Source of the DNA: an uncultured cyanobacterium
GTDB lineage: Bacteria; Cyanobacteriota; Cyanobacteriia; Cyanobacteriales; Microcystaceae
Assembly (NCBI GenBank): GCA_903869185.1
Contig: CAIPYC010000130.1
Location: 1 to 51,625, forward strand
Length of the DNA: 51,625 bases
Reading direction: 5' to 3'
Positions 23,449-28,935 of this stretch are shown piece after piece. Every line of letters begins with the position of its first letter. Position 1 is the stretch's first letter. A program made the translations under genes and the position numbers. The notes under the pieces are model-generated. The model was not told where the DNA came from. It did no database searches and worked only from the letters and a program-made list of their open reading frames with translations.

Positions 23449-25044
23449 CTATTCTTGTAAGATTGTTATTGTTTCAAAGACAGGACAACATCCTTCTGGA
23501 GTTACCTTAAAATCATAGAGTGGGGATTTAGTATTCCAGCACTTTTGTCCGCGGTAGTGGCGGCAATTACGACAACAGTCTATATCTTCAGTTCTTTTAT
23601 TGTTTTCGTTATTGTGCAAGATTAATTCTCTTTCTGGCAGTCCCCTAATAACTAGTTCGTCACCCTGCCATCTGGCTTCCACAATACCTGTACCAGAGAA
23701 AACAGACCAGCGGGTATCATTACTGATTAGATTTGGCAAAGAAATTACAATTGAACTGCCAAATTCATTGAGTTCTCCTTCATAAAGATTAAAGGTAGAT
23801 AAGACCGGCTGGACAAATTTTTCACCGATGGGCAAATCCACTTGATGGAGTCTAGATGGCACATGAAGCTGATAGCGGTTTTGCAATTCTTCTAGGGCGG
23901 CTAAATCTTTTAGATAGTTGGCAGGTCCATGAATCAAGATTACATGTTGAGGACGCAAATTATGAATCAATTGAGTGGTATTGCGTCCATCGCTATGTTC
24001 AGCTAAAAGATATTGAACACAATGTAGATCTGTAAATATCTGTGCAAGATTTTTCTTATGTTCGGGTATTAAAACTAACCAGGATTGATCACAATATTGA
24101 AGTATTGTTGATGGATCATCACATAGCAATATATAGGGTGAATTGTTAGGCTGGTTTTCTGGACTGATGCGGTGCATTTTGGGAAAAACTCGCTCATCCC
24201 AAAATAGGGGTTGATGCTTGGCGAAATTTTGAACAGCTATTGGAAATTGTGGCAAAAGTTGCAAATAAATATCACAGGCCACCGCTAGTTGACCAGTTAC
24301 CCAGATGTCAAGTTGCCTACCAGTGAATTGATGATGTGAACGCAGCAGTTTGAGAATTTCCTGTCCTAGCCCTAATGTGTCTACCAGAAATGCAATATTT
24401 TGCCCTATACAGAGAGAATTATGTATTAATTCCATAAGGGTTTTTTCCTGTTGACGTCTGTGAGGATGACGATTGGTACCGTAGGTTCCCTCGAGGATCA
24501 AAATGTCGGGATTAAGTCCGCGCAATGGTTCGATCGACAATCCTTCTACCAACTGAAAACTGGATAGACAAAAGTCCCCTGTATAAAAAATTCTATAAGA
24601 GCGCCCCTTAGTTTGATAGGTTAATAAAAAAGATGCTGCCCCGGGGATATGACCAGCAGGGAAAAGCTCTACTGTTAGATTTTCTAAAACCTTTACTGGC
24701 GAGCGCCAAGGAATTTCGTGGCAAAATCTATTGATTGTCTCATAGGTTATGGCTGGCCAAAGAAGAGTAAGAAGATAGGCTGTAACTCCGCTGGCAAATA
24801 TGGGAACATCTGGCCATATTTGATGAAATGACAAAAGTCCTCCAGCGTGATCTCTATGTGCATGACTACAGAGAACAAGATCAACTGCTGGATTTTTGCA
24901 TAAATCACTGAGATCATCGAGTCCACAATCAATTAGGACACTGTATTCCCCAATTTCCAGAAGTAAGGCAACTCCTTCATCATCTTGCCCAGTACCATAT
25001 GGCATACAGGAGAAGCTGACTTCTTGGTTAGACCAGCGTCTCAT
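23449..25044 (-). CDS. Metallo-beta-lactamase / beta-CASP nuclease-like protein with Cys-rich tail
   Basis: This 531-residue protein has the metallo-beta-lactamase zinc motifs HAHRDH (H61, H63, D65, H66), H132 in PAGHIPGAAS, and D157 in YTGDF. Beta-CASP motifs follow: E185 in LILEGTYG, the AEHSDGRNT segment, and the histidine of VILIHGPANYL. This combination is typical of RNA-processing exo/endonucleases (RNase J/CPSF73 type). The last 45 residues carry C490, C491, C494, C502, C519 and C520, a probable extra metal site not found in classical RNase J. The gene is the last of the pdhB-secD-secF series. RNA cleavage is inferred from family; the substrate is unknown. Confidence 0.88.
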   Translation of the reverse strand: MRRWSNQEVSFSCMPYGTGQDDEGVALLLEIGEYSVLIDCGLDDLSDLCKNPAVDLVLCSHAHRDHAGGLLSFHQIWPDVPIFASGVTAYLLTLLWPAITYETINRFCHEIPWRSPVKVLENLTVELFPAGHIPGAASFLLTYQTKGRSYRIFYTGDFCLSSFQLVEGLSIEPLRGLNPDILILEGTYGTNRHPHRRQQEKTLMELIHNSLCIGQNIAFLVDTLGLGQEILKLLRSHHQFTGRQLDIWVTGQLAVACDIYLQLLPQFPIAVQNFAKHQPLFWDERVFPKMHRISPENQPNNSPYILLCDDPSTILQYCDQSWLVLIPEHKKNLAQIFTDLHCVQYLLAEHSDGRNTTQLIHNLRPQHVILIHGPANYLKDLAALEELQNRYQLHVPSRLHQVDLPIGEKFVQPVLSTFNLYEGELNEFGSSIVISLPNLISNDTRWSVFSGTGIVEARWQGDELVIRGLPERELILHNNENNKRTEDIDCCRNCRHYRGQKCWNTKSPLYDFKVTPEGCCPVFETITILQE

Positions 25045-25060
25045 TGATTCTCAAAAGTAT

Positions 25061-25183
25061 CTAGTGTGCTGTCCCATTGCCATGGTAGTCATCGGAATCA
25101 TAGAAACCGTTTTTGGTAGCAAAGAAAAGCGAAGAAACAATAAAAAAACCACCTAAGATTAACATGATCAATTTGACATCCAT
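25061..25183 (-). CDS. 40-residue single-helix membrane protein
   Basis: This short gene starts at ATG 25183 and ends at TAG 25061. The protein begins MDVKLIMLILGGFF, continues through one membrane helix, then has a polar C-terminus rich in Asp, Gly and His (NGFYDSDDYHGNGTAH). GGAG lies about 11 bases before the ATG. It sits 48 bases after secF and 16 bases before the beta-CASP gene on the same strand, filling what would otherwise be an empty spacer. I recognise the general look of small thylakoid subunits (for example of photosystem, cytochrome b6f or NDH-1 complexes) but cannot assign it. Confidence 0.72.
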   Translation of the reverse strand: MDVKLIMLILGGFFIVSSLFFATKNGFYDSDDYHGNGTAH

Positions 25184-25231
25184 AATTGAGACTGCTCCGG
25201 TTTCTTTTGCTCTTATATTCTAGGACATATT

Positions 25232-26170
25232 CTAACTTTTCTTAAGCGTTAAGGAATTCTTTTCATTTCTCTTGCGCCACCAGCCAAAGAGAGTGCTAGC
25301 AATGAAAATACTAGAATAACCACCCGAGACAAAACCAATGATCAGTGCTAGAGCAAAAAGCTTGAGTGTTTCCCCGCCAAATAGAAAAATAGCCAGCAGG
25401 GTTAACAAAACGGTCATAATAGTATTTATAGAACGCCCTAAAGTCTGATTCACTGAATCATCAATTATTTTATCTATTGGGTAATCAGGAAATTTCTGAA
25501 GATTTTCCCTGATCCGATCATAAATCACCACAGTGTCATGAACAGAAAAACCAATTATGGTCAGTAATGCTACTAGAAACAGGCTATCCACCTCTACTCC
25601 AGTTAAAAGCCCCAGAATAGCAAAAACACTTATTGTTATCATCACGTCGTGAAGTAAGGCAATTACAGCAATAACAGCATAGTCAAATTCAAAACGTAGG
25701 CTCAGATATACAACAATGGCAAAGAAGGAAACTATTAAAGCTATGATGCCGGAATTGAGTAGATCTTTTCCTACAGTGGGTCCGACTGAGTCAATCTGAG
25801 TTTGTTTTTGGTCAAATTTCCCAATTTTTTCTTCTAATGATTGTTGTAAGTTAATTCTTTGTTGGGGATCGAGTGATTTGGTCCTAATAGAAAGTCCATG
25901 TTCTCCAATAATTTGGATACTGCTATCGCCCAGATTTTGAGATTTCAACAATTCTCTAATAGCTTCAACAGAGATAGGATTTTTACAGTTATTTTCAATA
26001 GAACAATCCAACTCTAGCTGTAATCTGGTACCACCAATGAAATCCAGCGCAGGCCTCAAAGGCGAGCCTATCTGGGAAAAACTTAGCAGCATAGCCAAAA
26101 TACCCGCTATTGTAATGACAATAGAAACACTCCACCAGAAACGTTCATGTTTAACGACACTGAGGGTCAT
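25232..26170 (-). CDS. secF: Protein translocase subunit SecF
   Basis: SecF works with SecD to pull exported proteins across the membrane using the proton gradient. The 312 residues have a first helix, a periplasmic P1-type domain starting at DFIGGTRLQLEL, then five helices with the RND motifs DSVGPTVGKDLLNSGIIALIV, ALLHDVMITISVFAILG, FSVHDTVVIYDRIREN and NQTLGRSINTIMT. The length is normal. It begins 12 bases after secD stops, so the two are translated from one mRNA. Confidence 0.97.
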   Translation of the reverse strand: MTLSVVKHERFWWSVSIVITIAGILAMLLSFSQIGSPLRPALDFIGGTRLQLELDCSIENNCKNPISVEAIRELLKSQNLGDSSIQIIGEHGLSIRTKSLDPQQRINLQQSLEEKIGKFDQKQTQIDSVGPTVGKDLLNSGIIALIVSFFAIVVYLSLRFEFDYAVIAVIALLHDVMITISVFAILGLLTGVEVDSLFLVALLTIIGFSVHDTVVIYDRIRENLQKFPDYPIDKIIDDSVNQTLGRSINTIMTVLLTLLAIFLFGGETLKLFALALIIGFVSGGYSSIFIASTLFGWWRKRNEKNSLTLKKS

Positions 26171-26182
26171 GACTGTTTTCTC

Positions 26183-27586
26183 CTATTTGACAGTAGCTGG
26201 TAGATTAGGGCAGAAAAGTTCGGGTTTTTGTCGAAGCTTGGGAATTCCCAAAACCAGGAGCATTAGAAATGTACGGGTACATGTCACAGCCGTAAACATA
26301 CTGATCAATACCCCTATGCTCAAAGTAACAGCAAAACCTTTTACTAGCCCAGAACCAAACCAGAACATTGAAGCACAGGCAATCAATGTCGTCACAGTAC
26401 TATCCAAAATAGTGGTAAAGGCTCGGAAAAAGCCACTTTCTACTGCACGATATAGGCTTTTATTCGCCCTGAGCTCTTCTCTAGTCCTCTCAAAGATAAG
26501 TACATTAGCGTCTACTGCCATACCAATGCTCAGAATATAGCCGGCAATACCAGGTAGGGTCATGGTCACACCAACCAGGCAGAAAGCAGCAAAAGTCAAC
26601 AAGGCATAGATCACCAAGGAGACATCTGCTACCAATCCAGGAAGGCGATAGTATACACCTATAAAAACCAGAACCAAAGACAACCCAGCCATAGCGGCAT
26701 AAATACTGCGCTTAATACTATCCTGCCCGAGAGTAGCTCCTATAGTACGGTTTTCAACTACGGCAACAGGAAAAGGCAAAGATCCTCCTCGCAGCTGAAT
26801 TGCCAGATCCTGGGCTTGTTCTATTTTAAAATCTCCAGTGATGATTGCCATTCCACCAGTGATACCGGTTTGAGCAAACTTGACCTCTACAGTAGGAGCG
26901 CTGATCAATTTGTTGTCTAAGAAAATACCAATACTGCGACCAGTTCCAGCCAACAACTTAGTTAGCTCAGCAAACTCTTGTCCTCCTATTTCATCAAAGC
27001 GAAGAGCAACAGACCAAAGATTATTGCCTCTTTCTGGAGCTTCAGGGCGAGCGTCTTTTAGATTTTTTCCAGTGATTACTGGACGATCAAAAAGTTTACT
27101 GATTGCTTCTTCTGATGTGAGAAGAGATTTCTGCAACCGGGCCAATTCCTCTGGTTTATTTTCTTTTCTTACACTGGCTATTTGCTCCTCCAAGGCTTTT
27201 TGGTTGCTATATTCTGCTCGGAATTGGCTTTGTGTGTCTATCTTTTGAGCCCGAAATTCCAAAAGAGCAGTACCACCTAAGATTTTCTCTGCCTCTTGCG
27301 GATCAGTTACTCCAGGTAGCTGCACCAGGATCCGGTTACCTCCTACAGTTTGAATGATAGGTTCAGCCACACCTAGCCCATTGATCCGATTTTCAATTAC
27401 CTTTTTAACTGCATTGAGATCTTGTGTTGTGATCTGCCCAGAGTTATTAGGATTTTTGATCTCGACTGTCAACTGGGCACCGCCGCGCAAATCAAGTCCC
27501 AACTGCAAGGGCAGTCTTTGAATAATCGTAAGAGCAGCAGCGACCAGGAGAACTATAAATATTAGGATCAATTTTTGCTTTTGCAT
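26183..27586 (-). CDS. secD: Protein translocase subunit SecD
   Basis: SecD is the larger partner of SecF in the export motor. The 467 residues include an N-terminal helix, GLDLRGGAQLTVEI, a periplasmic domain that holds the peptide-binding head (residues roughly 60-280), and five C-terminal helices with GATLGQDSIKRSIYAA, GMAVDANVLIFERTREELR and FRAFTTILDSTVTTLIA. It is shorter than E. coli SecD, as in other cyanobacteria. It lies 37 bases downstream of pdhB. Confidence 0.97.
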   Translation of the reverse strand: MQKQKLILIFIVLLVAAALTIIQRLPLQLGLDLRGGAQLTVEIKNPNNSGQITTQDLNAVKKVIENRINGLGVAEPIIQTVGGNRILVQLPGVTDPQEAEKILGGTALLEFRAQKIDTQSQFRAEYSNQKALEEQIASVRKENKPEELARLQKSLLTSEEAISKLFDRPVITGKNLKDARPEAPERGNNLWSVALRFDEIGGQEFAELTKLLAGTGRSIGIFLDNKLISAPTVEVKFAQTGITGGMAIITGDFKIEQAQDLAIQLRGGSLPFPVAVVENRTIGATLGQDSIKRSIYAAMAGLSLVLVFIGVYYRLPGLVADVSLVIYALLTFAAFCLVGVTMTLPGIAGYILSIGMAVDANVLIFERTREELRANKSLYRAVESGFFRAFTTILDSTVTTLIACASMFWFGSGLVKGFAVTLSIGVLISMFTAVTCTRTFLMLLVLGIPKLRQKPELFCPNLPATVK

Positions 27587-28764: not shown

Positions 28765-28935
28765 ATGCCTACCCCCCAGCCTACAAAATCGCCCAAGATA
28801 GAAGAGCCTAAATTCGGTTTCAATACTTATGCAGAGCGTCTCAATGGAAGAGCGGCCATGGTCGGGTTTGTTTTAACGCTCTTGATTGAGTATTTTACCA
28901 AGCAGGGGCTATTGGCTTGGTTGGGACTACAGTAA
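28765..28935 (+). CDS. High-light-inducible one-helix protein (Hlip/SCP)
   Basis: This 56-residue protein has a proline-rich start and the chlorophyll-binding helix signature NTYAERLNGRAAMVGFVLTL, followed by a hydrophobic end. The ExxNGRxAMxG pattern, with the Glu-Asn and Arg of the LHC-type helix, is diagnostic. Hlips bind chlorophyll and carotenoid and protect newly made chlorophyll proteins under light stress. It is upstream of the DUF3146 gene by only 4 bases, so the two are probably co-transcribed. Synechocystis has several such genes; I do not assign one name. Confidence 0.93.
   Translation: MPTPQPTKSPKIEEPKFGFNTYAERLNGRAAMVGFVLTLLIEYFTKQGLLAWLGLQ

Follow-up and report, generated by a model that had tools for sequence, protein, structure and literature searches.

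A 40-residue reading frame beside secF in a cyanobacterial contig is ndhP, with counterparts in marine cyanophages

In the window, as we call the whole 51,625-nt stretch of cyanobacterial DNA analysed here, a short reading frame lies between secF and a gene for a beta-CASP protein. Is this frame a gene, and if so, to what does its product belong? We found that it is ndhP, an ordinary and already known gene, and what is gained for the window is the correct name for a gene missed by the Pfam and NCBIfam models used. The copies of this gene carried by viruses, rather than the copy in the window, are the part that deserves specialist attention.

The reading frame and its identity

A complete open reading frame (ORF) of 40 codons plus a stop occupies positions 25183-25061 on the minus strand, with an ATG start at 25183-25181 and its stop codon at 25063-25061. 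The product is MDVKLIMLILGGFFIVSSLFFATKNGFYDSDDYHGNGTAH. An earlier note on this DNA had claimed a complete short frame between secF and the beta-CASP gene without giving its strand, and such a frame is present. In the direction of reading, the order is secD (27586-26183), secF (26170-25232), ndhP and the beta-CASP gene (25044-23449), with gaps of 48 nt between secF and ndhP and 16 nt between ndhP and the beta-CASP gene. The features are as follows:

25061..25183, minus strand: ndhP, encoding the 40-residue NDH-1L subunit P (PDB homology, conservation and frame constraint)
25118..25174, minus strand: predicted single transmembrane segment, residues about 4-22 (hydropathy and alignment with solved NdhP; boundaries set by eye)
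25064..25117, minus strand: polar tail at the C terminus, formed by residues 23-40 (holds 10 of the alignment's 13 invariant columns)
25195..25198, minus strand: GGAG resembling a weak Shine-Dalgarno site, 11 nt from the ATG (upstream sequence)
25232..26170, minus strand: secF, the upstream neighbour (Pfam and NCBIfam searches; in this position only in the window's genus)
26183..27586, minus strand: secD (Pfam and NCBIfam searches)
23449..25044, minus strand: gene with a beta-CASP/metallo-beta-lactamase fold, conserved downstream of ndhP (family searches and synteny)

The product, with a calculated mass of 4.44 kDa, contains a single hydrophobic stretch (Kyte-Doolittle mean over 19 residues reaching 2.35) followed by a polar tail rich in Asp, Tyr, Gly and His, in agreement with the single helix and polar tail described earlier. 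The ribosome binding site that had also been described was borne out in part: the GGAG is there, but it is weak and has an 11-nt spacer. Among the 112 distinct loci compared below, any of six Shine-Dalgarno cores was found within 20 nt of the start in 49. Scans of positions 24900-25400 returned two promoter-like sites (shuffle mean 1.0) and one terminator-like site on the plus strand (0.3 in shuffles), and neither result was used. Elsewhere in the window, at 28765-28935 on the plus strand, a 56-residue ORF contains AERLNGRAAMVGFV, a motif that makes it a putative high-light-inducible (Hli) protein.

A phmmer search of PDB sequences matched the 40-mer to the NdhP chains 6khi_P (E = 1.2e-11) and 6hum_P (E = 1.1e-10), with residues 2-40 aligned and the next matches at E of about 1. 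A profile built from 38 sequences, among them the window's protein, improved the 6khi_P match to 6.7e-23. An NCBIfam search of the 40-mer returned no family and a Pfam search returned two unrelated names, both below threshold; thus, the name NdhP rests on the PDB sequences and on conservation. The remark that genes of this size are often missed holds insofar as neither Pfam nor NCBIfam offered a usable model, but NdhP itself is well studied. Several ndhD- and ndhF-like genes are present in the window's genome. Two of these, ndhF (C15:3395-5365) and ndhD (C15:5477-6943), are adjacent on contig C15 and have NdhF1 (1015.5 bits) and NdhD1 (860.6 bits) of NDH-1L as their best matches, and both partners of NdhP are therefore encoded in this genome.

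We regard it as close to certain that the ORF is ndhP, encoding a single-span subunit that stabilizes the NdhD1/NdhF1 module in the distal part of the thylakoid complex NDH-1L, the photosynthetic complex I of cyanobacteria. The suggestion in the earlier note of a small subunit of a thylakoid complex was accordingly right, and the subunit can be named. The gene and its homology are observed, as are the ndhD1 and ndhF1 genes of this genome, the constraint on the frame and its near-universality in the class (below), while the position in the complex and the stabilizing role come from published work on other cyanobacteria. In T. elongatus, NdhP sits in the NdhD1/NdhF1 distal unit and was detected only in NDH-1L, which was not detectable after deletion of ndhP (PMC4131877). 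Two further reports describe contacts of NdhP with lipids and carotene as well as with the subunits NdhD and NdhF (PMC6992706, PMC7021789). By analogy, we infer the same role in the window's organism: NdhP, together with a carotenoid and lipids at the interface, would pack against NdhD1 and NdhF1 and would hold their module on NDH-1L, which could then serve both cyclic and respiratory flow by carrying electrons from ferredoxin to plastoquinone. A 2025 genome study counts NdhP as one of the subunits gained by the complex at the stage of the first photosynthetic cyanobacteria (PMC12038448).

Conservation, selection and neighbouring genes

The earlier note had proposed looking for counterparts in cyanobacterial genomes and for protein-like constraint, and both were found. 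A search of near relatives returned ndhP in all 39 genomes, the window's own included, with one match each (over residues 14-40 only in genome G032). In a draw from the class, 114 of 116 genomes had a match (G451 had two); the two without one are G419, assembled in about 380 contigs, and G433, in about 1230. A phylum-wide draw gave a match in 185 of 386 genomes. Identities are given for 20 of the phylum-wide misses, with a further 181 not itemized: 19 of the 20 come from outside the class, and the other, G085, belongs to the same order and is listed as 99% complete. A nearer NdhP query against G085 gave a chance-level E of 1.27, and a DNA search with 3 kb around the congeneric gene gave nothing convincing, an empty answer that is uninformative for a DNA search of this kind. 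G254, a congener of G085, does have an ndhP match.

Thirteen of the 40 columns are invariant in the 38-row alignment (G032 left out), and 10 of these fall in the tail. Removal of seven duplicates from 119 loci left the 112 distinct loci, a sample that leans towards close relatives since 73 of them were drawn from the best 80 of at least 549 matches. The stop follows residue 40 in all 112 and the start is ATG in 110. Median pS/pN in the ndhP frame was 0.85/0.15 (6216 pairs). In a six-frame control this was the strongest signal; the best other frame, antisense, gave 0.61/0.23 and in the other four pN exceeded pS. Selection therefore fits the ndhP frame best, and its conservation goes beyond chance.

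The downstream neighbour has metallo-beta-lactamase and RMMBL matches and a Cys-rich C-terminal tail. In 89 of the 112 loci its first matched stretch is on the ndhP strand and fewer than 600 nt downstream of that gene, and in two it is further downstream. The remaining 21 loci showed no such match; the downstream DNA available was limited to 70 nt in one of them and to 1500 nt in four. At E of 0.001 or better, a beta-CASP match was found in 87 of the 116 class genomes (in one, G188, very weak): 69 have it on the ndhP strand and fewer than 700 nt downstream of that gene, 17 have it at another place, and one has no ndhP match. This frequent pairing is what would favour a reading in which the small protein is a functional partner of the beta-CASP protein and not of NDH-1. 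We consider that reading highly improbable, because ndhP is present without any beta-CASP match in genomes G008 and G016, and the two genes lie apart in G018, G024 and G031. In the Epithemia turgida endosymbiont (loci L004 and L046; genome G021), moreover, the downstream beta-CASP match is broken by several stops and ndhP is open, which argues that the neighbour decays while ndhP stays. The neighbourhood is thus common but separable. One locus comes from a record titled Candidatus Gracilibacteria SU_1_2; it holds a typical cyanobacterial ndhP and beta-CASP gene, and the contig or bin is therefore probably mislabelled.

Small single-span subunits are common in photosystem and cytochrome b6f complexes, and the protein could on that count be an NdhP-like subunit of one of these. 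We give this almost no credence, since the alignment with solved NdhP runs end to end, the tail is invariant in many columns, and no photosystem or b6f chain was found among the eight (phmmer) or nine (profile) PDB matches up to E of 10. The SecDF accessory protein that the earlier note had offered as its other option, a peptide read with secDF and aiding protein export, has in its favour the 48-nt spacing on the same strand and an order shared by both congeneric genomes, but this proposal too is negligible in our estimate and was rejected as unsupported, since secF is upstream in only three of the 112 distinct loci (the window and the two congeners) and the sequence matches a subunit of NDH-1L. 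With a beta-CASP pairing that is separable and a secF linkage local to one genus, neither neighbour explains the small protein, and we retain its identification as NdhP of NDH-1L.

NdhP in marine cyanophages

The window's 40-mer also matched phrog_2173, a viral family annotated as 'unknown function' (E = 7.2e-11), and this family was matched by all 38 cyanobacterial NdhPs of the alignment. A profile of 13 viral copies matched PDB NdhP at 1.2e-13, ahead of chance matches ('Cake', 'Scone'), and a profile-profile comparison of viral with cyanobacterial NdhP gave a probability of 99.3 and an E of 3.7e-20. By sequence, then, phrog_2173 is NdhP. It differs from the cyanobacterial protein in a short insertion before the tyrosines, carried by 47 of 99 viral copies.

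A tblastn search with the window's protein (E up to 10) found 373 of 50,697 phage records, three of which are Bacillus phages and probably chance matches. The S-WAM2 copy as query found 371 phage records, and the S-SSM5 copy, a frame of 43 residues, found 387 (E up to 0.001), named Synechococcus (329), Cyanophage (46), Prochlorococcus (10) and Marine (2). For scale, a T4-like terminase search returned 1007 records, 462 of them named Synechococcus, Cyanophage or Prochlorococcus; these may not be the same records as those with ndhP and many isolates are near-identical, so that 'most T4-like cyanophages' is an estimate.

Surroundings were compared over 99 viral loci: 19 annotated regions and 80 contigs, the latter being the most similar among at least 373. 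Within 2.5 kb of viral ndhP, tblastn found gnd at 53 loci, zwf at 44, petE at 36 and ptoX at 27, followed by NAD synthetase (19), terminase gp17 (14), talC (14), ndhI (12), petF (8), nrdB (2), psbD (1) and CP12 (1), counts that were made with query proteins from five of the same loci, on non-independent loci with frequent short contigs, and that have no random-position baseline. At least one of zwf, gnd, ptoX, petE, petF, ndhI, talC, psbD and CP12 was present at 83 of the 99. The arrangements gnd-ndhP-zwf and ndhP-ndhI recur. In P-TIM40, a hypothetical ORF matching NdhP shares 4 nt with the start of ndhI, a positional link between the viral gene and NDH-1.

Annotation of the gene is uneven. 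Among the 19 annotated regions, hand-picked for variety, 12 have no in-frame gene, five carry a hypothetical or predicted protein in that frame and two name NdhP; P-TIM68 and S-SCSM2R are the phage records that already do so. In part of the 12, an out-of-frame CDS covers the place. The 99 loci yielded 77 distinct stretches, the rest being identical or too short, and pN/pS in the ndhP frame was 0.37 for the 35 with the insertion and 0.45 for the 42 without it. The next best frame, antisense, gave 0.60 and 0.65, respectively, and the other four were above 1. In part of the phages the +1 frame over ndhP carries an annotation, either as a hypothetical protein or as the beginning of zwf. This frame is free of stops in 32 of the 35 sequences with the insertion, a point against reading it as an annotation error, and is interrupted by stops in all 42 without. 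Its pN/pS in the insertion sequences is 1.19, as opposed to 0.37 for ndhP, and we think on this basis that the annotated starts are placed too far upstream.

Two types of tail occur. CAHDVKR, or nearly so, was found in seven of 20 chosen cell genomes (19 of family f31 and one of f33) and at 30 of the 99 viral loci; GNGTAH, or nearly so, was found in 13 and at 66, respectively, and three viral loci fit neither. That both types are common to cells and viruses suggests more than one capture from hosts, although 40 residues are too short for proof.

Viral ndhP is known in principle, and mentions of it in the literature seen are brief. Metagenomes have shown ndhP in cyanophages, according to the part consulted of a 2023 review of 153 cyanophage genomes, where NADH dehydrogenase subunit I is recorded in one genome and no count for ndhP was found (PMC10452541). 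Earlier metagenomic studies had suggested ndhI, ndhD and ndhP, as related in PMC3877843, and in PMC8066212 ndhP appears once, in the reference list. From the sequence comparisons above we put forward, as an evenly balanced reading, that phrog_2173 is a largely unrecognised viral NdhP which most T4-like marine cyanophages carry in an electron-routing cassette and which sustains the NDH-1L of the host. The cassette would be gnd-ndhP-zwf with petE, ptoX or petF, and in some phages ndhP-ndhI. During infection, viral NdhP would replace or supplement the host subunit and NDH-1L would stay assembled. Reductant from a phage-driven oxidative pentose phosphate pathway and from photosystem I could then enter the plastoquinone pool, which would be drained through phage PtoX and plastocyanin with a yield of ATP. 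If confirmed, NDH-1L would be a general target of marine cyanophages, and the sugar-oxidation and electron-transport genes of these phages would be joined in one testable pathway.

Comparison with known systems

One likeness is to NDF6/PnsB4 of the plant chloroplast NDH, where the end of the helix and the tail show weak similarity (E = 0.0054 with cyanobacterial profile A1). Viral profile A2 reached E = 2.2e-4 in the same comparison, in which chance matches to the designed 'Cake' and 'Scone' proteins scored better, so that this value calls for caution. The plant proteins differ in having longer PDB chains (83-161 residues), and the match ends at NdhP residue 37. This similarity is already in print, in the introduction of PMC4131877. 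In Synechocystis, sml0013 (NdhP) is an NDH-1 subunit gene according to a literature title. A further comparison is with Thermosynechococcus NdhP (chain P of 6KHI and 6HUM), from which the window's protein differs by ordinary substitutions and by the two to four extra N-terminal residues of the PDB chains, and with which it shares its length, its single hydrophobic span and the tail NGFYD-D-YHGN.
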